Shown: piece after piece, positions 1,816-29,159 of the stretch | Position numbering within the stretch: the first letter of the stretch is position 1 | Layout: each line of letters opens with the position of its first letter | Origin: Phycisphaera mikurensis | GTDB taxonomy: Bacteria; Planctomycetota; B15-G4; JADJEK01 | Direction of reading: 5' to 3' | Assembly: GCA_020723465.1 (NCBI GenBank) | Contig: DYIW01000010.1 | Coordinates: 5,786-40,144 of the forward strand | Length of the DNA stretch: 34,359 nt | Translations under genes and position numbers: made by a program | The notes under the pieces: generated by a model | Told to the model about the DNA's origin: nothing | Databases searched by the model: none | What the model saw: the letters and a program-made list of their open reading frames with translations, nothing else

Positions 1816-2096
1816 GATCGACCTCGACTCGCCCGGCCGGAAGCCACGGATCAGGTCTCGAGGCGCGGAACCCGCGGCCGCGGCCGGCACGGCTCGGCGG
1901 GGCGCCCGCGCTCCATCCGGATCAACCAATAGCATCGTAATTCAACCCGGCCCGCCAGGGGAAGTTGCGGGGCTTTCCTGGTCGGCCGGGTGCCGCTTCG
2001 CCTGGCCGGGGGGGGCGGGCAGGGGAAGGCCGCGCGTCGCGGCCTGGCGGGATCTCTGGTATGTTCGAGGCAGGAGATCCTGCACGGGAGTTGGCC

Positions 2097-3365
2097 ATGC
2101 GCCTCGTCCTCGCCGCCGCCGTCTGCTGCGTCCTCGCCCCGCTCGCCTGGTCCGACTCGCTCGCTCCGGGCGAGACCAAGGTCCTGAGCTTCAAGAAGAG
2201 CGTGCCAGCCGTGGGCGAGAGCACGCGCCCCTCGGTCTCCGAGAACGGCCGCTGGGTCGCCTTCCTGTCCGATCGACCGAACCTGACCGCGCCCCCCGGC
2301 AACGGCAATGTGCAGGTCGTCCTGCTCGACCGCGAGACGAACGACACCAGCCTCGCCTCCGTGAGCACGGTCGGCGTGCAAGCGAATGCCTCCTGCTACG
2401 CCCCGCAGGTCGCCGCGCAAGGCCGGTACGTCGTCTTCTACACGACCGCGTCGAACCTGGTGGTCGGCGACACGCTCGGCCACCACGACGTCTTTCGCCG
2501 CGACCGTAAACTCGGCGAGACGTTGCTTGTCACCCTGTCCCACACCCAGCAGTGGCCGAACGCCGGCTGCATCCGGCCGAGCGTGTCGGCGAACGGCCGT
2601 TTCATCGCGTTCGAGTCCTCGGCCTCGAATCTGACCGCGGCCGGCGGCAACGGCTTCAATCAGATCTACGTGCGCGACATGAAGCTCGGGAGCACCGAAC
2701 TCATCTCCGCCGGAGCGGGCGGCGTGCTGGGCAACGCCCACTCCTCGCACCCTTCGATTTCCGCGGACGGCAAGCTGGTCGCGTTCCAGTCTGCGGCGTC
2801 CAACCTCGGCGCGGCGAGCGGCAACCAGGTGTGGGTGCACAACCGCGGGACCGGGCAGACCCAGCTCATCTCGCGGGGCCACGGCGGGGCGGCGCCGGAG
2901 AGCGGCAGCGAGCTGCCCCGGATCTCGGGGAACGGCCGCTTCGTCGCGTTCACCTCAACGGCGGGCAACCTGACCGCCCAGGACCAGGGGCCGGCCACCG
3001 AGGACGTGTTCGTCTTCGACCGCAAGAAGAAAAAGATGCGGCAGTGGGTGATCCACGCTGCGGGAGAGAAGCGGGACGCGCAGGTCCAGGGCATCTCCGA
3101 GAACGGCCGCCATGTGCTGGCCAAGTCGGCGGAGATCTTGCCGTTCACTTTCCTCGCGAACGCCCTCTGGCGCATGCATGTCATCGACCGCGAGCAGGAG
3201 ACGATCAAGGTGTGCTCGGTCAACTCGCAGGGCAAGCAGGCGAACGACACGGCCTTCGCGGGCGCGCTCTCGTCGAACGGCAAGTACATGGTGTTCGACT
3301 CGACCGCCACGAACCTCGGCAAGGATGAGGACATCCTGTTCGACGTGTTCATCCACCGCGAGTGA
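2097..3365 (+). CDS. Secreted seven-bladed PD40/TolB-like propeller protein, copy A
   Basis: The protein has 422 residues. The first ~19 residues are a signal peptide, so it should act outside the cytoplasm. The rest is seven repeats of about 58 residues, starting near residues 44, 102, 160, 218, 273, 331 and 388. Each follows the pattern P-x-[IV]-S-x-N-G-R-x-V-A-F-x-S-x-A-x-N-L, then a D/N-rich turn, then [VI]-[FY]-V-x-[DN]-R. This is the WD40-like PD40 repeat of TolB-type beta-propellers, and seven repeats make one complete ring. I chose the ATG at 2097 because copies B and C start at the same place with the same first residues. Upstream ATGs would bury the signal peptide. No catalytic residues are recognisable, so a binding or scaffold role is likely. 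It is the first and most diverged of three tandem paralogs. Confidence 0.88.
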   Translation: MRLVLAAAVCCVLAPLAWSDSLAPGETKVLSFKKSVPAVGESTRPSVSENGRWVAFLSDRPNLTAPPGNGNVQVVLLDRETNDTSLASVSTVGVQANASCYAPQVAAQGRYVVFYTTASNLVVGDTLGHHDVFRRDRKLGETLLVTLSHTQQWPNAGCIRPSVSANGRFIAFESSASNLTAAGGNGFNQIYVRDMKLGSTELISAGAGGVLGNAHSSHPSISADGKLVAFQSAASNLGAASGNQVWVHNRGTGQTQLISRGHGGAAPESGSELPRISGNGRFVAFTSTAGNLTAQDQGPATEDVFVFDRKKKKMRQWVIHAAGEKRDAQVQGISENGRHVLAKSAEILPFTFLANALWRMHVIDREQETIKVCSVNSQGKQANDTAFAGALSSNGKYMVFDSTATNLGKDEDILFDVFIHRE

Positions 3366-3383
3366 GGCGCCCGCTCGGGCGCC
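3366..3383 (+). terminator. Hairpin terminator directly after propeller copy A
   Basis: GGCGCCC-GCTC-GGGCGCC is a perfect 7-bp GC stem with a 4-base loop that begins on the base after the stop codon. There is no U-tract. The same hairpin with the same position follows copy B. Confidence 0.6.
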
Positions 3384-3392
3384 GGCGCCTGT

Positions 3393-3620
3393 GCCACTGA
3401 TCGCGAGGATCCTCGCGAGGCGCGCAGATCCCGTGCGGCATCGACGAGCCAGACGATCTTTCCGGGCCGTGGCAAGGCGGAAGGCAGAAGCGGTCGGATG
3501 GGCCCTGCAAACCACCAACTTCAAACTTCTGACTGGCGGCGGCGTTGGGCTTGCAAAGGCAGGGGGCGAACCGCGTGCCTCGGATGAACGCAAACCGCCG
3601 AGTTCGGTTGCGGCGCCGCC
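3393..3620. other. Extra spacer between propeller copies A and B; no gene seen
   Basis: Between copies B and C the shared terminator runs straight into the shared promoter. Between A and B about 230 extra bases separate them. This stretch has no convincing coding frame and contains a locally AT-richer part (about 3508-3535). It also holds a perfect 18-bp palindrome, TCGCGAGGATCCTCGCGA at 3401-3418, with no spacer. It may be inserted DNA in A-B or deleted DNA in B-C; I cannot tell which. Confidence 0.5.
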
Positions 3621-3624
3621 GCGA

Positions 3625-3653
3625 TGTGTGCGGCGACTGCTCCCGGGTAGACT
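3625..3653 (+). promoter_or_regulatory. Probable sigma70-type promoter of propeller copy B
   Basis: TGTGTG (3625-3630), 17 bases, TAGACT (3648-3653), about 33 bases before the start codon. The same arrangement with one changed base in the -35 box precedes copy C, which supports conservation. Confidence 0.5.
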
Positions 3654-3685
3654 GGGCTTCGAGAGATTCCGCAAGGGAGCTGGCC

Positions 3686-4957
3686 ATGCGTGTCGTCCTC
3701 GCCGCCGCCGTCTGGTGCGTCCTTGCCCCGCTCGCCTGGTCCGGTTCGCTCGCCCCGGGCGAGACCAAGGTCCTGAGCTTCAAGAAGAGCCTGCCGCCCG
3801 TGGGCGAGAGCCTGCAGCCCGCGATCTGCGAGAGCGGCCGCTGGGTGGTCTTCCTGTCGGACCGCACCAACCTGACCGACCCGGCGGGCAACGGGCTGAA
3901 CCAGGTCATCCTCCACGACCGCAAGAAGGACGATTACCGGCTGGTCTCGGTGAGCACGCTCGGCGCGCAGGCGGCGAGCGACTGCTACCTGCCCACGATC
4001 TCGAAAAACGGCCGCTACGTCGTGTTCTACACCGTTGCGTCGAACCTGGTGGCCGGAGACACCCTGGGCCACCACGACGTCTTCCGCCACGACCGCAAGA
4101 CCGGAGAGACCGTGCGCGCCAGCCTGACGTGGGACGAGAAGGAGCCGAACGCCGGCTGCACCTATCCGCGCGTCTCCGGGAACGGCTACTGCGTCACGTT
4201 CCAGTCCACGGCCACGAACCTCGTGGCCGCGGGCGGCAACGGCTTCAGTCAGATCTACGTGCGCGACCTGCTGCTCGGGAACACCGAGCGCGTCTCGGTC
4301 GGCCCGGGCGGCGTCGCCGGCAACGACGACTCGCAGAGGCCGTCCCTTTCCCACGACGGCGGCATCGTGGCCTTCCACTCCGAGGCTGGCAATATCGGCG
4401 GGCCGGTGGGCACGCACGTCTACGTGCGCAACCGCCAGACGGGGCAGACCGAGCTCATCTCGCGCGGGCACGGCGGCGAGCTTCCGCAGAGCGGCAGCCG
4501 CTACGCGCTGGTCTCCGCGAACGGGCGGTTTGTCGCGTTCACGTCCACGGCGAGCAACCTCACCGCAGAGGACAAGGGGCCGGCCACCGAGGACGTGTTC
4601 GTCTTCGACCGCAAGAAGGAGAAGATGGAGCAGTGGGTGCTCAAGGCCGGTGGAAAGAAGCTCGACGGGTCGGTCCAGGGCATCTCGGCGAACGGCCGCT
4701 ACGTGCTGGCCGCGTCGCAGGAGATTCTCACTGCCGCCGGCAAGCTTGCGAACAGCCTCAATCGCATGCACCTCATCGACCGCGAACAGGGAACGGCCGA
4801 GCTTTGCTCGGTCAACTGCCAGGGCAAGCAGGCGAACGGCACCTGCCCGCGGGGCGCGTTGTGCGCGAGCGGCAAGTACATGGTCTTCGACTCGATCGCC
4901 ACGAACCTCGGCAAGGATGAGGACATCCTGTTCGACGTGTTCATCCACCGCGAGTGA
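3686..4957 (+). CDS. Secreted seven-bladed PD40/TolB-like propeller protein, copy B
   Basis: The protein has 423 residues, with a signal peptide (MRVVLAAAVWCVLAPLAWSG) and seven PD40-type repeats in the same register as copies A and C. The start is the ATG at 3686, preceded by AAGGGAG at 6-7 bases; this context is repeated before copy C. The last 88 nucleotides of the unit (4897-4984: end of the gene, stop codon and terminator) are identical base for base to 3305-3392 of copy A, although the middles differ at many positions. That suggests duplication followed by divergence or partial gene conversion. Mature protein is presumably periplasmic or extracellular. No enzymatic motif is visible; it probably binds a ligand or protein. 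Each copy seems to be its own transcription unit rather than part of one operon. Confidence 0.88.
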   Translation: MRVVLAAAVWCVLAPLAWSGSLAPGETKVLSFKKSLPPVGESLQPAICESGRWVVFLSDRTNLTDPAGNGLNQVILHDRKKDDYRLVSVSTLGAQAASDCYLPTISKNGRYVVFYTVASNLVAGDTLGHHDVFRHDRKTGETVRASLTWDEKEPNAGCTYPRVSGNGYCVTFQSTATNLVAAGGNGFSQIYVRDLLLGNTERVSVGPGGVAGNDDSQRPSLSHDGGIVAFHSEAGNIGGPVGTHVYVRNRQTGQTELISRGHGGELPQSGSRYALVSANGRFVAFTSTASNLTAEDKGPATEDVFVFDRKKEKMEQWVLKAGGKKLDGSVQGISANGRYVLAASQEILTAAGKLANSLNRMHLIDREQGTAELCSVNCQGKQANGTCPRGALCASGKYMVFDSIATNLGKDEDILFDVFIHRE

Positions 4958-4975
4958 GGCGCCCGCTCGGGCGCC
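4958..4975 (+). terminator. Hairpin terminator directly after propeller copy B
   Basis: Same 7-bp stem and GCTC loop as at 3366-3383, starting on the first base after the stop codon. Confidence 0.6.
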
Positions 4976-4986
4976 GGCGCCTGTCC

Positions 4987-5015
4987 TGTGTACGGCGACT
5001 GCCCCCGGCTAGACT
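4987..5015 (+). promoter_or_regulatory. Probable sigma70-type promoter of propeller copy C
   Basis: TGTGTA (4987-4992), 17 bases, TAGACT (5010-5015), 32 bases before the ATG; matches the copy B promoter and lies right after the copy B terminator. Confidence 0.5.
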
Positions 5016-5047
5016 GGGCGCCGAGAGATTCCGCAAGGGAGTTGGCC

Positions 5048-6316
5048 ATGCGTCCCGTCCTCGCCGCTGCTGTCTGCTGCGTCCTCGCCCCGCTCGCCTG
5101 GTCCAGCTCGCTCGCTCCGGGCGAGACCAAGGTCCTGAGCTTCAAGCAGGGCGTGCCGGCGGTCGGTGAGAGCATGTGGCCCTCGATCAGCGAGAACGGC
5201 CGCTGGGTCGCTTTCGCGTCCGATCGCCCGAGCCTGACCAATCCGCCGGGCAACGGCAACAAGCACATCGTCCTCCTCGACCGCAAGAAGGACCACTACA
5301 GCCTGGCGTCGGTGAGCACGCTCGGGGTGCAGGCGAACCAGGACTGCTACACGCCGGTGATCGCGGGGAACGGCCGCTACTTGGCCTTCTACACCGTGGC
5401 GTCCAACCTCGTGTCCGGGGACACGCTGGGCCAGCACGACGTCTTCCGCCACGACAGGAAGACCGGCGAGACGCTGCGCGCCAGCCTGACGCACGACGAG
5501 AAGGAGCCGAACGACGGCTGCACCCTGCCGAGCATCTCCGCGAGCGGCCGCTTCGTCGCCTTCGAGTCCCTGGCCACGAACCTCACCCCGGCCGGCGGCA
5601 ACGGCTCCTACCAGGTCTACGTGCGCGACATGCTGCTCGGGACGACCGAGCTCGTCTCCGCCGGCGCAGGAGGAGTGCTGGGCGACGCCAATTCCCGGCA
5701 TGCCTCGATCTCCGCGGACGGCAAGCTGGTCGCGTTCCACTCCAGCGCTTCCAACCTCGGCGCGGCGAGCGGGGTCCAGGTGTGGGTGCGGAACCGCAAG
5801 TCGGGGAAGACCGAGCTGATCTCGCGGGCCCACGGCGGCGCGGCGCCGGAGAGCGGCAGCATGAACGCCAGGATCTCCGCCAACGGCCGCTTCGTGGCGT
5901 TCTCGTCCACGGCGCACAACCTGACCGCTGACGACAAGGGGCCGGCCACCGAGGACGTGTTCGTTTTCGACCGCAAGCAGGACAAGCTGCGGCAGTGGGT
6001 GATCAAGGCCGCGGGAGAGAAGCGGGACGCGGAGGTCCAGGGCATCTCGGGGAACGGCCGCTTCGTGCTGGCTCTGTCCGAGGAGCCGCTGCCCTTCGCG
6101 TTTGGCGGGAACTCCCTCTGGCGCATGCATCTCATCGACCGGGAGCAGGAGACGATCGAGGTGTGCTCGGTCAACTCCCAGGGGAAGCAGGCGAATGACT
6201 CGACGTACTCGGCCGCGCTCTGCGCGAACGGCAAGTACGCGGTCTTCGATTCAGCGGCCACGAACCTCGGCAAGGACGGGGACACGGCCCGGGACGTGTT
6301 CATCCATCGCAAGTGA
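5048..6316 (+). CDS. Secreted seven-bladed PD40/TolB-like propeller protein, copy C
   Basis: The protein has 422 residues, with a signal peptide and seven PD40 repeats aligned with copies A and B. The start at 5048 is supported by the AAGGGAG before it and by the identical leader context in copy B. Within the propeller it resembles copy A in some blades (for example the ADGKLVAFHSSASNLGAASG stretch, nearly as in A) and copy B in others (HDEKEPN), a mosaic pattern. The C-terminal blade departs most: the acidic DEDILFDVF of A and B becomes DGDTARDVF. The clean GGCGCCC terminator found after A and B is not preserved here. The role is unknown; like its paralogs it is probably a secreted binding protein. 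Confidence 0.88.
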   Translation: MRPVLAAAVCCVLAPLAWSSSLAPGETKVLSFKQGVPAVGESMWPSISENGRWVAFASDRPSLTNPPGNGNKHIVLLDRKKDHYSLASVSTLGVQANQDCYTPVIAGNGRYLAFYTVASNLVSGDTLGQHDVFRHDRKTGETLRASLTHDEKEPNDGCTLPSISASGRFVAFESLATNLTPAGGNGSYQVYVRDMLLGTTELVSAGAGGVLGDANSRHASISADGKLVAFHSSASNLGAASGVQVWVRNRKSGKTELISRAHGGAAPESGSMNARISANGRFVAFSSTAHNLTADDKGPATEDVFVFDRKQDKLRQWVIKAAGEKRDAEVQGISGNGRFVLALSEEPLPFAFGGNSLWRMHLIDREQETIEVCSVNSQGKQANDSTYSAALCANGKYAVFDSAATNLGKDGDTARDVFIHRK

Positions 6317-7728: not shown

Positions 7729-7818
7729 AGAGGGCGGCCGTCCCGCCGCGTGATAGAATCGAGCCGCCACCCGCGCGGCGCCGCGCGCGGCGCCAATACC
7801 GCTCACGAGGTCCTCCCC

Positions 7819-10440
7819 ATGCGAACATCCACCGGGAACCCGCTGCTCGTGCTCGGGCTCACGGCCTTCGCGCTGGTGTGCCTCCCCGCCCCAACGCCGG
7901 TCTCCGCGGGCCCGCCCGCGCCGCCCGTGGTCAATCCGGCCGAATGGGAGCCCATGAGCGGAGTCCTCGTTCGCATGTCGGCGGGAGGAGTCCCCCTGGC
8001 TCTCATCGCCGAGATGTCGCAGGACGTCGAGGTGATGACGATCGTCCTCGACAGCGCCGAACAGACGGCGGTCGCCAGCATGTACGCCGGCAACGGCGTG
8101 AACATGGCGAACTGCGCCTGGCTGTTCGCCCCGGCCAATACCGTGCTGACGCGGGACTACGGGCCCTGGTACGTCTTCACGGGCGGCGGCGCCCAGGCCA
8201 TCGCCGACAACGTGTACGGCAACCCGCTGGACGACGCGATCCCGCTCGCTCTCGGCGCCGCGCTCGGCATACCCGTCCATCAGACGTCCCTCTTCATCCA
8301 GGGAGGGAACTACATGAGCGACGGCATGGGCACCGGCATGTCGGACGAGATGGTGCTGGAGCAGAATCCAGGCCTCACGCCCGGCGCCATCCAGGCCATC
8401 ATGAAGTCCTACCTGGGCGTGGAGCCCTACCACGTGCTCGAGGACATCGGCAGCGCGTCCCACGTCGACACGTGGGCGAAGCTCGTGGCGCCCGGGCGCG
8501 TGCTGGTCAAGCGTCTCGATCCGCCGAACCTGATGCTCGAGGCCAGGGCCAAGCATCTCGCCACGCTGATGAGCTCCTACGGGCGCCCGTACGAAGTGGT
8601 CCGCATCGACAATACGTACGAGACCGGCTACGTCAACGCGCTCATCCTCAACGACAAGGTCCTGGTGCCCCTCTTCAACCACTCCCTCGACGGCCCGGCC
8701 CTGGCCGCCTGGGCGAACGCTCTGCCGGGCTACCAGATCATCGGCGTGCCCAACGGCGGCTGGGGGCCGGGCAACGCGCTGCACTGCCGGACCATGGGCA
8801 TCACCGACCGCTACATGCTGCGGGTCGCGCACGTCCCGCTCGGCGACCGCGAGAACGACGGCTCCGCCTATCTGGTGAGCGCGGAGGCGCACGCGTACAG
8901 CAACCAGCCCCTAGTCTCCGGCGCTCCGACCGTCATGTGGAAGACGGTGGGAAGCCCTGGCGGCTTCGCCGCCCTGGCGATGGCGCACGCCGGCGGCGAC
9001 ACCTTCCGGGCGTACATCCCGCAGCAACCCGACGGCACCGAGGTCCTCTACTACATCGAGGCGTCCGACGCTTCCGGACGCACCGAGCATCACCCGAGCA
9101 TCGGCGCCGGCGCTCCGCACCGCTTCGCCGTCGGACCGGACCTGACCGGGCCGACGATCGATGTCGATCCGCCCGCCATCCTGCTGGCCGCGAGCTGGCC
9201 GCTGGCGCTCACCGCGGAGGTGCGGGACGAGCGTGGCGTCGCGAGCGTCGACCTGGAATACCAGGTGAACGGCGGGCCGCCGACTTCGCTTCCCATGCAG
9301 CTCCGGCCGTCGAGCGCGGTGGTGTACGAGGCCGCGATGGCCGCCCCGGCCGTCGCGCCCGGGGACCGCATCGAGCTGCGTATCAAGGCGGTGGACATTT
9401 CGGTCAGCCAGAACCTCACCGTCGAGCCGCCGTTCGGGCACCACTCGATCGAGGTGGTGAGCGGGGCGCAGGCCTGCGTGTGGAATCCCGCGGGACAACC
9501 CTCAGGAGGGGTGTTCTACGACATGCTCGTCGACGCCGGGATCCGCTGCGTGTATGCGAGCGGCGAGCCGCCCAGCTTCGTCGGCTTCGACAAGCTGTTT
9601 GTGTTCCTCGGCCTCTATCCCAGCGCCTTCGCGTTGAGCCAGAGCCAGGTCGCGGCGATCGCCGCGCACGTGAACGCTGGTCACGACGTCTACCTGGAGG
9701 GCGGCGATTGCTGGGCCTACCATCCGCATCACGATCAGTTGGGCGCCGCGTTCGCTATCCAGGGTGTCTCGGACGGCGGCCCGATTGCGAATCCGATCAG
9801 CGGCGTGGGGCGGACCTTCACGGAGGGCATGTCGTACAGCTACACGCATCCCAGCTCGTATGTCGACGTGGTGCAGCCCGTGGGCGGCGGCGCGGCGATC
9901 TTCGGTCACGCGGCCGGGACCATCGGCGTGGCCAATGAGGCCTCGGGCCACCGAACCGTGGGAACGAGCTTCGAGTTCGCCAGCATCTCGGGCCAGAACC
10001 CGCTGAGCTCTCAGGACCTGCTGTTCGAGCGGATCCTGCGCTTCTTCTCCTTCAGCTTGTGGACGGACAGCAGCAGGGTCGAGGCGACGACCGGCGGGAT
10101 CGTTCACTTCACGCTGGACGCCGGCGCGGACCACGGCGGCCGCAGCTACGTGCTGCTCGGCAGCGCCAGCGGCACAGCGCCGGGCCTCGCTCTGCCGGGC
10201 GGCCTGACTTTGCCTCTGGCCTGGGACGCGTTCAGCGGGCTGACCTGGTCCTTCGCCAACACGCCCGTGTTCCAGGGCTTCGGCGGCACGCTCGACGCCG
10301 CGGGCGGAGCGGCGGCCGCGTTCGACACGCTGGGTCCGGTGCCCGCCGCCGCGGTGGGCACAACCTTCTTCTTCGCGTACTTGCTGCACTCGCCGTTCGA
10401 CTTCGTCTCGACCCCGGTGGCGATCGAGATCGTGCCGTAG
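7819..10440 (+). CDS. Secreted peptidylarginine/agmatine deiminase-like multidomain protein
   Basis: The protein has 873 residues. Residues 1-31 are a signal peptide ending in PVSAG. Residues ~37-350 form a PAD_porph (PF04371) domain of the guanidine-modifying superfamily. Visible are RDYGPW with Asp113, QGGN with Asn164, HVDTW with His215 and Asp217, and the active-site Cys323 in ALHCRTMGI, so the catalytic set of Asp, His and Cys is complete. Family enzymes convert arginine side chains or agmatine to citrulline or carbamoyl-putrescine plus ammonia. An export signal fits a peptidylarginine deiminase better than cytosolic agmatine deiminase; this is inference. Residues ~350-590 look like beta-sandwich domains, ~590-745 a flavodoxin/GATase-like alpha/beta region (VFLGLYPS, YLEGGDCWAY), and ~750-873 a C-terminal beta module common in planctomycete secreted proteins. 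The start at 7819 sits at the signal peptide; a TAGAAT at 7754-7759 could be its -10 box. Confidence 0.85.
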   Translation: MRTSTGNPLLVLGLTAFALVCLPAPTPVSAGPPAPPVVNPAEWEPMSGVLVRMSAGGVPLALIAEMSQDVEVMTIVLDSAEQTAVASMYAGNGVNMANCAWLFAPANTVLTRDYGPWYVFTGGGAQAIADNVYGNPLDDAIPLALGAALGIPVHQTSLFIQGGNYMSDGMGTGMSDEMVLEQNPGLTPGAIQAIMKSYLGVEPYHVLEDIGSASHVDTWAKLVAPGRVLVKRLDPPNLMLEARAKHLATLMSSYGRPYEVVRIDNTYETGYVNALILNDKVLVPLFNHSLDGPALAAWANALPGYQIIGVPNGGWGPGNALHCRTMGITDRYMLRVAHVPLGDRENDGSAYLVSAEAHAYSNQPLVSGAPTVMWKTVGSPGGFAALAMAHAGGDTFRAYIPQQPDGTEVLYYIEASDASGRTEHHPSIGAGAPHRFAVGPDLTGPTIDVDPPAILLAASWPLALTAEVRDERGVASVDLEYQVNGGPPTSLPMQLRPSSAVVYEAAMAAPAVAPGDRIELRIKAVDISVSQNLTVEPPFGHHSIEVVSGAQACVWNPAGQPSGGVFYDMLVDAGIRCVYASGEPPSFVGFDKLFVFLGLYPSAFALSQSQVAAIAAHVNAGHDVYLEGGDCWAYHPHHDQLGAAFAIQGVSDGGPIANPISGVGRTFTEGMSYSYTHPSSYVDVVQPVGGGAAIFGHAAGTIGVANEASGHRTVGTSFEFASISGQNPLSSQDLLFERILRFFSFSLWTDSSRVEATTGGIVHFTLDAGADHGGRSYVLLGSASGTAPGLALPGGLTLPLAWDAFSGLTWSFANTPVFQGFGGTLDAAGGAAAAFDTLGPVPAAAVGTTFFFAYLLHSPFDFVSTPVAIEIVP

Positions 10441-10484
10441 CAGCCCAGCTCTGCCCAGCCCAGGTCGTCGGCAAGGAACGAGTC

Positions 10485-11102
10485 ATGGTCTTGCGCCGTC
10501 TTCTGCTGCTCGCGTCGTTCGCGCTCGTTGCATGTGCGCCCGAGCCGGGCGCGCCGCGCGCCGGCCTCCAGACCGGCGAGCGGCTGGTGCGCGAGGCGGT
10601 CCATCGCGCCAACCCGAACATGAACCCGGAGGCGGTCTTTCCCGTGCGGGAGATCACGCCGGAGCCGGTCTGGCTGGAACTCGGGCTGCAGGTGTTCCAG
10701 GTCACGGAGCAGGCCACGACCCAGCAGCACGAGACTTTCGTGGTGCGAGGGCAGGAAGTGGTGCACATCGCGTCGGGCATCGGCGGCATGGGAGTCGAGT
10801 CTCTGCTGGCCGCCGACCTGGACGGAGACGGCAGCGCCGAGCTGGTGTTCAGCTACTCGTGGGGATCGGGCATCCACCGCTCCCAGGTCGGCGCACTCGT
10901 CCGGCGCGGGGACGCGCTCAGCGAGCTGACGGCGGATTGGGCCTTCCGCGGGGACGTAGAGCTCGAGCGCGATCCGCGGGGAGCGGTCTACGTGTGCGCG
11001 GACGGCGTGCGGCTCGGCCAGGTCGCGCTGGAGCAGGACGCGCTGCGCGTGCTCGTGCGGCCGGATTTGCCGGAGACCCTCCAGCAAAAGGTGTGGCGCT
11101 GA
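10485..11102 (+). CDS. Putative lipoprotein with an FG-GAP-like calcium-binding segment
   Basis: The protein has 205 residues. The N-terminus MVLRRLLLLASFALVACAPE is a lipoprotein signal with lipobox L-V-A-C, so it should be lipid-anchored at residue 17. A stretch LLAADLDGDGSAELVFSYS, about residues 107-125, has the Asp-x-Asp-x-Asp-Gly loop of FG-GAP/EF-hand-like repeats, which often bind calcium in beta-propellers; only one such repeat is evident. The rest is beta-rich and I cannot assign it. AAGGA lies about 8 bases before the ATG. It starts 44 bases after the deiminase gene and ends 54 bases before the glycosyltransferase operon, so it could be co-transcribed with either. Confidence 0.75.
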   Translation: MVLRRLLLLASFALVACAPEPGAPRAGLQTGERLVREAVHRANPNMNPEAVFPVREITPEPVWLELGLQVFQVTEQATTQQHETFVVRGQEVVHIASGIGGMGVESLLAADLDGDGSAELVFSYSWGSGIHRSQVGALVRRGDALSELTADWAFRGDVELERDPRGAVYVCADGVRLGQVALEQDALRVLVRPDLPETLQQKVWR

Positions 11103-26328: not shown

Positions 26329-26352
26329 GCCGCGACCGCAAGCGGCCGCGGC
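26329..26352 (-). terminator. Hairpin just after the candidate precursor gene
   Basis: On the minus strand GCCGCGGCC-6 bases-GGTCGCGGC forms nine pairs including one G-U, beginning 3 bases after the stop codon of the 32-residue peptide. No U-tract follows. It would end the operon before the GH127 gene. Confidence 0.55.
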
Positions 26353-26355
26353 GTC

Positions 26356-26454
26356 TCAGAAAGTGATGCCGACGAACTCGACGCCCGCCAGGAGTTCAGC
26401 GGCGTCGATGGTCTCGATCTTCGGCGGCTCCCACACGAGGACGTTGTCCTGCAT
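26356..26454 (-). CDS. Candidate RiPP precursor peptide (32 residues)
   Basis: Starts MQDNVLVWEPPKIETIDAAE and ends LLAGVEFVGITF. An in-frame TGA lies four codons upstream of the ATG, so the start is fixed; GGAG lies 4 bases before it. The pattern aromatic-x-x-Pro-x-Ile (WEPPKI, residues 8-13), then an acidic helix and E-L-L-A-G, resembles the YxxP leader motif that PqqD-type recognition domains bind in lasso-type precursors. If cleavage follows Ala-Gly or Gly, the core would be the 8-9 hydrophobic residues at the end. The peptide is encoded last in the minus-strand operon with the peptidase-PqqD fusion and the nucleotidyltransferase. No residue of the putative core is Cys or Ser; one Thr and one Glu could be modified. 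A short frame by itself is weak evidence; context makes it likely. Confidence 0.6.
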   Translation of the reverse strand: MQDNVLVWEPPKIETIDAAELLAGVEFVGITF

Positions 26455-26478
26455 CGTGCTCCGACCTCATGCTAGATG

Positions 26479-26497
26479 GCCGGGCGGCCTGCCCGGC
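26479..26497 (-). other. Hairpin between nucleotidyltransferase and precursor genes
   Basis: GCCGGGC-5 bases-GCCCGGC is a perfect 7-bp stem, 24 bases upstream of the precursor start. It could stabilise or attenuate the message so that the small peptide is made at a different level from the enzymes. Confidence 0.4.
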
Positions 26498-26542
26498 TTC
26501 AGCCTGAACGTGCATGCAGTGTTCCATGAGCGCCTTCCGGCG

Positions 26543-27468
26543 TCAAGGCCTGCGCCGGAGCCGTGCAGCCAGCTTGCGCTCGATGCGCCATGCGGGCCGC
26601 AGGCGCGTGCCCTGAGGATGCAGGGCGAGAAAACGGGCCCAGCGCAGGCAGGCGCGCTCGCAGGGCTCCGCGGGCGCTGCGGCGGGCCACCCCAGCAGGC
26701 CGGCCAGCAGCGCGCGCGCCAGCGCGAGCGCCCGAGGCACATCTGCGACGACGTAAGCCGTGAACGGTTCATCGCCTGCAGCGACATCGCCGAGAAGCGC
26801 CAGGTCGAGCAGAGCGCGCAGCGGGAAGTGAAAGCCGTGCACGGCCGCGTGCACCACGACCTGCGCCTGCGCGTCCGCCGGAGCGAGAAGGCGCGGCGAA
26901 ACGCCCTCCGGCGCCCGGCGAAACAGGCTGAGCAGGCGCGACGGCTCCGGAGCCCCGCCCGGTTCGAGCGCGTCGTGGACTTCCACGGGAACGGCGAAGT
27001 CAGCGCGCGCGAGCGGCGCGGCGTGGTGGTGTGTGCCGTAGTCTGGGGCCCTGTCCTTCACGATCGGCGCGAAGCCGGCCGCGATCAGGCACTCGACCGC
27101 GGCCTGCCGCGCGCCCGGAGGAACGAGAAGGTCGACGTCCCCCATCCATCGGAAGCTCGGATCGAGGCCGGTGCGCAGCAGCAGGTCCGTCCCCTTCAGG
27201 GGCAGCGCCTCGATGCCGCGTCCTTGCAGCAGCGCGCTCACGGCGCGCATGGCCTCGAGCCCGCTGCGGCCGCGCCGGCCCGCTTCGTCCGCGGCGAACG
27301 CGAGCGCGCGCTCGGCCGAGGCCGGCAGGCGCCCGAGGTCGCCGCGCGCAGCACGGCGAGCGCCAGGCCAGGAAGCCCCTGGCAAGCGAGCGCGCGCGCG
27401 AGCTTCCCGGGCGGGAGCGAACGCAGGGCCGGCCCCTCGCGGAACAGCCGGATCGCCCGGTCGATCAC
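26543..27468 (-). CDS. PF14907-type nucleotidyltransferase of a RiPP-like operon, with apparent frameshift
   Basis: The start is the GTG at 27468, which overlaps the stop of the upstream gene as GTGA, a classical coupled junction. The first frame gives about 50 sensible residues (IDRAIRLFREGPALRSLPPG, then ALACQGLPGLALAVLRAA) but stops at 27238. The rest of the protein, including the signature, continues in the neighbouring frame (from about RGDLGRLPASAERALAFAAD). A one-base loss near 27325-27355 would explain this. The main part has LPLKGTDLL, then RWMGDVDLLVPPG, the Gly-Asp-x-Asp core of the uncharacterised nucleotidyltransferases (PF14907), and a later VVVHAAVHGFHFPLRALLDL. Such proteins accompany PqqD and HPr-kinase-like genes in peptide-modification loci; their reaction is not established. 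If the frameshift is real the gene is damaged; an assembly error or recoding is also possible. Confidence 0.7.
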
Positions 27469-28169
27469 GGGGCAGCCCGCCGCTCCGCGAGGCCACGCCG
27501 CAGCAGAGAGCCCGCGAGGTGCAGCACGTCGTCCTTCACGTCGCGGCCATACTTGCGGCCGAGCTCCGCGGCGACCTCGGCCAGGGTGCGGCGGGCATCG
27601 AGCGCCAGGAAGATCTCGCGCGCCGTCGCGTTGAGGACGTGCACCTTCTTGCCGGACGGATCCCGCACGAACAGCTCACGCTCCAGGTCCTGCGTGGTGA
27701 GGCCCGGAGTTCGGCCCAGCACGGCCTCGTCCGGCAGCGTGGCGCCGAGCAGGGCCTGCACCGGGAAGCCGCAGCGCTCGGCCGCCGCCGTCAGGCCGGC
27801 GCCGAGGTTCCGGAGCGCCGCGCGGAGCGGCGCCGCGGCCGGATGCGGAGGCTCGAGCGCGCGGCCCACCAGGCGGGCGGCGTCGAACCAGTCGTCCGGC
27901 TCGGCGTTCGCGTCGCCCTGGGTGCGCACGCGAAACGATCCTTCTCTGCCCTCGACCGCGATCACGCGATGGACCACGACCTGGCCGCGGTCGAGGAAGG
28001 CCACCACGTCGCCGGGCTCGGGCCTCGCCCCGCTCCCCCGGATGCGCACGCGCGCCCCATCCGCGTAGGCGGGCTCCATGCTGCGGCCGCGCAGCGTGAC
28101 CGCGCACTCGGTTCCCAGCTCTCGGAACCGCGCCAGTGTCTCCGGGATCTCGTCCGCAGCGCCGGACAT
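27465..28169 (-). CDS. S26-like peptidase fused to a PqqD peptide-recognition domain
   Basis: The protein has 234 residues. Residues ~10-110 match S24/S26 signal-peptidase-like domains: TLRGRSMEPAYADGARVRI with nucleophile Ser30, EPGDVVAFLDRGQVVVHRVI with His67 in the place of the usual Lys (as in the archaeal/ER S26B type), and VRTQGDANAEPDDW with Asp86. There is no membrane anchor, unlike ordinary signal peptidases. Residues ~152-232 are a PqqD domain (KKVHVLNATAREIFLALDAR, then RTLAEVAAELGRKYGRDV), the winged-helix fold that binds leader peptides of RiPPs. The natural reading is that PqqD brings the precursor to the peptidase for leader removal; this is inference. GGGAGG lies 7 bases before the ATG. 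First gene of the minus-strand operon, divergent from the kinase-like gene. Confidence 0.85.
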   Translation of the reverse strand: MSGAADEIPETLARFRELGTECAVTLRGRSMEPAYADGARVRIRGSGARPEPGDVVAFLDRGQVVVHRVIAVEGREGSFRVRTQGDANAEPDDWFDAARLVGRALEPPHPAAAPLRAALRNLGAGLTAAAERCGFPVQALLGATLPDEAVLGRTPGLTTQDLERELFVRDPSGKKVHVLNATAREIFLALDARRTLAEVAAELGRKYGRDVKDDVLHLAGSLLRRGLAERRAAP

Positions 28170-28235
28170 GGGCCGCCTCCCTGCAGGCCTCGCTACGATG
28201 GCAGCGTAGCCCTTGTCGCGCGGGCTTGTCCAGCA

Positions 28236-29159
28236 ATGCCCTCCAACGACATCCAGACGCTGCTGCTCGACCTGTGCGGCGTCCGCGTCGAGATCCGCTC
28301 GGTGGAGCCGGCGCTGCTGCGCGGACTGGCCGAGGCCTATCCCGCCGCGGTGGTCGAGGGTGGCCTGCCGCACGCCCGGCTCGGCATCGAGCTGGCCGGA
28401 CGCGGAATCGTCGCCTGGACCGACCCGGCCGCGTCGCTCGAGGAGGTCTTCCCGGCCGAGCTGGACGAGCGCTTCGCGCGCCGCGGCGAGGAGCTGCTGG
28501 ACCGCCACTCTGGGATCCGCCTGCGGGCCGGCGCCGGGCGCATCGAGCTCGACGGTCCCGCGCCCGCCGCGGCCGAGATACTGCTTTTCCACGTCATGCT
28601 GCTCGCGGCGCGCCGCGCCGGCCGCGACCTGCTCGTCCTGCACGGCGGCGGCGCCATCGCCGACCCGGGAAAGGGCGCCCTGCTGCTCCTGGGGCCGAGC
28701 GGATCGGGCAAGTCCGTGCTCACCGCCGCCCTCTGCCGGCGCGGCCTGGCCTGCGTGTCGGACGAGGTCCTGGTCATCGAGGGCGGCCGCGTCCTGCCCT
28801 ATGCGCGCGCCATCGGCCTGCGCGAGCCGCCGCCCGAGCCGCACGCGACGCGGCCCGCCGCCTCCGGCGAGATCAAGCACCTCGCGTCCCCGTGCTCTCT
28901 CGGGGCGGGTCAGGCACCGCCAGGCGCCGCCATCGGCTGCGTGGTGCTGCTCGAGCCCTACGGCGCCTCGCCCAGCGCGCAGCCGCTCGAGCGCCGCCAG
29001 GCGGCAGAGCGCCTCCTTCCCCACTGCTACACCGGACGCAAGGACCCGGCGCGGCTCCTCCTGCGCCTGCTCGGCCTCTGCCGCGGGGCCGCGTGCTGGT
29101 CGGTGAGGCCGGGCACGCCCGCGGACACGGCGGCCCTCCTGCAAGAGCTCGCTTCCTGA
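28236..29159 (+). CDS. HPr-kinase-like P-loop protein of a RiPP-like locus
   Basis: The protein has 307 residues. Residues ~130-200 have the HprK/P layout: LLVLHGGGAI with His136, Walker A GPSGSGKS (153-160), CVSDEVLVIEGGRVLPYARA with the acidic Asp177-Glu178 pair. The C-terminal HPr-loop of true HPr kinases is absent and the N-terminal ~120 residues are specific to this subfamily. Relatives occur in lasso peptide clusters, where one (in paeninodin) phosphorylates the precursor C-terminus, so a peptide kinase role is plausible. No clear Shine-Dalgarno precedes the ATG at 28236; the next downstream in-frame start would remove conserved sequence, so I kept this one. It diverges from the peptidase-PqqD gene across 66 bases, which must contain both promoters. 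Confidence 0.85.
   Translation: MPSNDIQTLLLDLCGVRVEIRSVEPALLRGLAEAYPAAVVEGGLPHARLGIELAGRGIVAWTDPAASLEEVFPAELDERFARRGEELLDRHSGIRLRAGAGRIELDGPAPAAAEILLFHVMLLAARRAGRDLLVLHGGGAIADPGKGALLLLGPSGSGKSVLTAALCRRGLACVSDEVLVIEGGRVLPYARAIGLREPPPEPHATRPAASGEIKHLASPCSLGAGQAPPGAAIGCVVLLEPYGASPSAQPLERRQAAERLLPHCYTGRKDPARLLLRLLGLCRGAACWSVRPGTPADTAALLQELAS

Follow-up and report, generated by a model that had tools for sequence, protein, structure and literature searches.

The closest described system is that of the linear polyphosphorylated peptides (LPP; Popov et al. 2026, PMC13381572), known from the lppAKBSDN genes of Paenibacillus alginolyticus. In the part of that report on which we draw, the set comprises a precursor (LppA), an HprK-like kinase (LppK), an RRE protein (LppB), a SipW-like peptidase (LppS), an NTP transferase (LppN), and an exporter (LppD), with no cyclase, and it is reported as restricted to Bacillota and of unknown role. 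The same part of the report states that LppS depends on LppB to cut LppA and requires S29, H68, and D93, that LppB holds the YxxP motif via N33 and D70, and that FusB1, a non-Bacillota protein, bound both tyrosine and tryptophan leaders. It further states that the S3T variant was not modified by LppK, that LppS is poorly soluble, and that LppB is insoluble alone. Other known systems share some of these components. The paeninodin/pseudomycoidin type of lasso cluster (PadeK, PsmK, PsmN) has in common with the locus described here a WxxP leader, a PqqD-type protein (B1), an HprK-like kinase, and a nucleotidyltransferase. The HPr-rel-A and SynChlorMet cassettes of NCBIfam (TIGR04352/04353, TIGR04248/04249) share the combination of an HprK-related kinase with a PqqD-related chaperone; their models match the window or related proteins weakly, all below the family cut-offs, and among kinases the SynChlorMet ScmC model picks up those of related loci but not the one in the window.

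The window is the whole stretch of DNA analysed here, from an uncultured planctomycete and 34,359 nucleotides in length. A preliminary description had proposed an undescribed RiPP-type locus made up of a short peptide, a peptidase-PqqD fusion, a PF14907 protein, and an HPr-kinase-like protein. All of these parts are present in the sequence, the first three on the minus strand and the kinase gene divergent on the plus strand (Table 1), and the RiPP-type assignment agrees with a conserved short precursor with a leader motif adjoining an RRE gene. The claim that the locus is undescribed has to be given up, as the same core set is already on record from Bacillota, as LPP (PMC13381572, 2026). We consider it probable that this is an LPP-like RiPP locus that follows the LPP logic of precursor, leader cutting, and kinase, an assignment that rests on gene set, motifs, folds, and RRE profile matches. 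We use LPP-like, and do not place the locus within LPP, because two defining features of that family are missing: the RRE is not a discrete protein and the full leader motif is absent. A sister genome carries the peptide, an identical gene order, and the same flanking genes. In the window the peptide gene lies 89 nt downstream of the nucleotidyltransferase gene.

Table 1. Features of the locus and their positions in the window
Feature	Position	Strand	Remarks
GC-rich hairpin straight after the peptide stop codon	26321-26355	-	possible transcript end, without a T run
Precursor peptide, 32 aa, MQDNVLVWEPPKIETIDAAELLAGVEFVGITF	26356-26454	-	GGAG upstream
Nucleotidyltransferase-like protein, LppN-like	26543-27496	-	NTP_transf_5 PF14907, E 3.6e-23
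Fusion, 234 aa: SipW/archaeal-type signal-peptidase-like domain, linker, PqqD/RRE	27465-28169	-	Pfam/NCBIfam; PF05402 E 4e-8
HPr-kinase-like protein, LppK-like	28236-29159	+	HprK_rel_A E 1.6e-9, below family cut-off

In the literature collection searched, no paper connected planctomycetes, PqqD, and RiPP. The three larger proteins of the locus had no match in PADLOC, and an anti-phage defence system was dropped as a candidate on that result. Elsewhere in the window, three paralogous proteins with signal-like N-termini are encoded in tandem at positions 1965-6316 (PD40 beta-propeller kind, Pfam on the first one), and at positions 7750-10440 a peptidyl-arginine deiminase domain of the Porphyromonas type is followed by a long C-terminal extension.

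The precursor carries its WxxPxI leader motif at W8 to I13 (WEPPKI). Between the window and the sister genome 31 of the 32 residues are kept (97% identity), compared with 66-86% for the neighbouring proteins, and the codon differences comprise six synonymous and one nonsynonymous change (pS 0.28, pN 0.013). The pN values of the fusion, the kinase, and the next gene are 0.083, 0.138, and 0.099, respectively. Because silent changes dominate and constraint is stronger than on the neighbours, the peptide is a real gene. The ribosome-binding stretch AGGTCGGAGCACG is identical in the two genomes. The sister also has a hairpin at the same place after the stop codon, of different sequence, although compared with shuffled sequence these hairpins are weak and not clearly better (z -1.8 and -1.5). 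Among profile searches, the NCBIfam and Pfam models for precursor peptides provided none that was useful, and the window peptide was not among the matches of a first HMM, for which five precursors from a single planctomycete family had been used. An HMM of other planctomycete precursors, with this genus left out, placed the window peptide first among 181 short frames of the window (E 0.005); its score with the broader precursor HMM is 10 bits, which none of 20,000 shuffles reaches. The window peptide is likely homologous to the other planctomycete precursors, as judged from this modest similarity, and a related precursor in locus L138, YEPPKIETYTDEELLEKLG, resembles the window peptide, WEPPKIETIDAAELLAG.

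In the fusion protein the peptidase occupies residues 1-110 and the PqqD/RRE domain residues 155-234, with the linker between. The peptidase domain is S24/S26-like and matches sigpep_I_arch (E 5e-12, below the cut-off), and the catalytic residues Ser30, His67, and Asp92 are conserved in the aligned relatives, with the exception of Cys for Ser in a fused relative (L157). When the fusion was run against the PDB with phmmer, weak signal-peptidase matches were the best result. The AlphaFold model (pLDDT 82, pTM 0.52) is confident for the domains and not for their relative placement; with Foldseek its N-terminus resembles SpsB and LexA and its C-terminus resembles PqqD and the lasso RREs TbiB1 and TfuB1 (target-normalised TM 0.75-0.80). 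A planctomycete RRE-domain profile run against the PDB matched TbiB1 (E 1e-12), LppB (9x8z, E 2.9e-9), and PbaB1 (1.1e-5). When the alignments are read together, the window RRE domain has Asn and Asp where LppB has its peptide-contact residues N33 and D70; the contact residues that the LPP report, in the part consulted, ties to tyrosine leaders (PMC13381572) are therefore present in a protein whose own leader carries Trp. Among the genomes searched, the RRE-peptidase fusion occurs in this genus only.

We propose that the C-terminal RRE would grip the precursor via WxxPxI, with the leader as an added beta-strand, and that cutting would then fall to the SipW-type peptidase of that chain, with its Ser/His/Asp residues; Ala23 or Gly24 would most likely be the last leader residue. 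A cut after Ala23 is predicted because 12 residues separate the motif proline from the LPP cleavage site; this probable junction, ELLA/G at residues 23-24, would leave the nine-residue core GVEFVGITF, and a cut after Gly24 the eight-residue core VEFVGITF. That the fused peptidase removes the leader, as the preliminary description had suggested, is well supported by analogy with LppS and LppB, since the catalytic residues are kept and both domains lie on one protein. According to the published account the leader is presented to the peptidase by the RRE, and the natural fusion lends that view independent support.

The HprK-like kinase would act on the RRE-bound precursor, with Thr31 the likeliest site because no other residue of the predicted core bears a hydroxyl. 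The fold is supported by a predicted model of the kinase (pLDDT 78), which resembles structures of PEPCK and HprK/P, although all family scores are below the cut-offs. The key residues are His136, the P-loop Lys159, Asp176, and Glu177, of which the first three are invariant among 14 relatives; published lasso kinases have a His-Lys-Asp-Asp motif, and Glu177 in place of Asp would be a conservative change. Action of the kinase on this peptide, which the preliminary description had put forward, is only a candidate step: Ser is missing from the predicted core, and LppK left the S3T variant unmodified, which also counts against the LPP-like reading. By analogy with LppK, phosphorylation is the least secure step of the scheme, and we regard it as conceivable but somewhat doubtful. 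The PF14907 protein, if intact, may add a further group, as is thought for PsmN or LppN, and a transporter whose gene lies elsewhere might export the product. Neither Pfam on the ten larger frames scanned nor a reading of the ORF list by eye revealed an MsbA-like exporter, again a point against the LPP-like reading, as are the peptide similarity of 10 bits, the kinase scores, and a shifted nucleotidyltransferase frame that could belong to a decaying or mis-assembled copy.

Loci in other genomes bear on how far the likeness to LPP extends. A search for the same gene set had been suggested in the preliminary description, and [Y/W]xxPx[I/V] peptides do lie beside the same enzymes in planctomycetes and acidobacteria. 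In 392 planctomycete genomes the kinase, RRE, and nucleotidyltransferase genes often adjoin; the short [Y/W/F]xxPx[I/L/V] peptides that accompany them are twin-arginine-like, lasso-like, or of a third kind, 'YEAPKIETYTDEELLEKLGPAHTGY', which the window peptide resembles. A similar peptidase is present in 114 of 366 Acidobacteriota genomes, though ordinary SipW may account for many of these; when the best 20 loci were read to 12 kb, six had both kinase and RRE and three more had one module gene. In locus L007 a nucleotidyltransferase, peptidase, peptide, kinase, RRE, and radical SAM protein stand in a row. The peptidase is fused to a kinase in L156 and L157 and to a nucleotidyltransferase in L200. 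That the same peptidase occurs in three distinct fusions is an argument for a single substrate shared by these proteins.

These relatives also provide the alternative that survives best, a separate RiPP family of Planctomycetota with LPP-like recognition and cutting, in which the kinase acts on a conserved Thr or is idle and the peptide has a different fate, such as one in the cell envelope. Within the precursors of one planctomycete family, Thr lies at the same distance from the motif (+22) in 40 of 48; in the window peptide it is at +23. Precursors may be present in many copies, up to eight per genome in one family (f43), and of the 36 precursor loci read a secreted SBBP-repeat protein was close at 22, a kinase at 10, and a C25 peptidase at 8. 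The gene row with the C25 peptidase and a leader consensus unlike that of LPP point the same way. The enzyme set, however, is otherwise that of LPP, and the window locus has neither an SBBP nor a C25 neighbour. We consider a separate family unlikely, but it deserves consideration, and multi-copy precursors beside secreted proteins are a first clue to function.

Several further arrangements were seen in these genomes. Small RRxFLKK...YxxPxI proteins (L024 484-750, L025 505-678, L026 159-425, L029 3-275, L052 32-199, and others) merge a twin-arginine-like stretch with the RRE-type motif and adjoin PqqD, HprK-like, and PF14907 genes with no peptidase; they are possibly another substrate class. 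Multi-copy precursor-like peptides occur in L075, L076, L077, and L123-L141, most beside secreted DUF7948/SBBP beta-propeller proteins, with MacB-like transporters beside them in L132, L139, and L141. The fused relative L157 has PqqD, radical SAM/SPASM, and peptidase-kinase fusion genes in a row (8383-11074), with Cys at the catalytic Ser position. In L012 (8755-9942) a PqqD domain is joined to TPR repeats and a methyltransferase.

A decaying locus, whose enzymes would have ceased to act jointly in this genome, is suggested by the state of the nucleotidyltransferase gene. The sister gene is intact, with a GTG start that overlaps the stop of the fusion gene, and the window copy is 69% identical to it. 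The window stretch is 4 nt shorter than the sister between 27347 and 27348, and because of this difference the frame from the GTG at 27468 stops after 76 codons, with the conserved PF14907 domain going on in another frame. The nucleotidyltransferase named in the preliminary description is therefore confirmed as a domain but has a shifted reading frame relative to the sister. The lack of a recognised exporter in the frames covered and the restriction of the fusion to this genus would also fit decay. Against this, purifying selection acts on the peptide, the fusion, and the kinase in the genome pair, the sister gene is intact, and the 4-nt difference may be a mutation or an assembly (consensus) error. 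Decay is rather improbable in our judgement.

The WxxP leader, RRE, HprK-like kinase, and PF14907 protein are all known from paeninodin-like clusters, and a phosphorylated lasso cluster of this type with its B2 protease and cyclase elsewhere in the genome was considered. The preliminary description had noted that B2 and C are not in the window, which is correct, and no such pair was found in the 92%-complete genome either. The genome has one Transglut_core3 match, in a secreted-type protein of ~650 aa with no adjoining RRE gene, and three Asn_synthase matches on other contigs, two of them ~690-aa frames of the usual AsnB length. The precursor, too, had been likened to those of lasso peptides; the W-x-x-P-x-I motif is present, but the resemblance stops at this RRE-binding motif. 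The predicted core has no Asp or Glu at the ring distance of 7-9, its sole acid, Glu26, being the second or third residue, and lacks the C-terminal Ser of the paeninodin/pseudomycoidin type, from which the window also differs in having neither a transglutaminase-like B2 protease nor an Asn-synthase-like cyclase. A lasso cluster with scattered parts was rejected by the searches of the 92%-complete genome and is very unlikely. Weakest of all, and rejected by the codon-change pattern between window and sister, is the reading of the short frame as a chance ORF whose neighbours act on something else: GC-rich short frames are common in the window, but the six-to-one excess of silent changes, the sister identity, and the best family match among the short frames make this extremely improbable.

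The LPP-like reading is therefore compared directly with the published system. LPP and the window locus have in common a [Y/W]xxPx[V/I] leader, a PqqD-like RRE, a SipW-type peptidase with Ser/His/Asp, an HprK-like kinase, and no lasso cyclase. The NTP transferase of LPP has a counterpart in the PF14907 domain of the window, whose frame is shifted relative to the intact sister gene. LPP is found in Bacillota, has a leader Tyr, a discrete RRE, and an MsbA-like exporter, whereas the window locus is in Planctomycetota, with a leader Trp, an RRE fused to the peptidase, and no such exporter recognised in the frames covered. Of the LPP motif YxxPxVLxHQxIxFETxxS only the first part, [Y/W]xxPx[I], and the spacing from Pro to the junction are matched, and HQxIxFETxxS is absent, which weighs against the LPP-like reading; in the scanning motif Px9Fx[T/A] the window has P11-x9-L21-x-A23, with Leu for Phe. 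The LPP core has 45 residues with phosphorylated S3, compared with 8-9 residues, Thr31, and no Ser in the predicted window core. Threonine-centred, very short, often multi-copy products, and in this genus an enzyme that recognises and cuts on one chain, might set the planctomycete sets apart from LPP, a distinction that we offer only tentatively. If it is true, the enzyme of this genus would by nature unite the tasks that LPP divides between LppB and LppS. Together with its relatives, the locus extends the logic of recognition, cutting, and kinase from Bacillota, the range given in the part of the LPP report used here, to Planctomycetota and Acidobacteriota, and compared with the poorly soluble LppS and the LppB that is insoluble alone, the fusion offers a single-chain protein for structural work.
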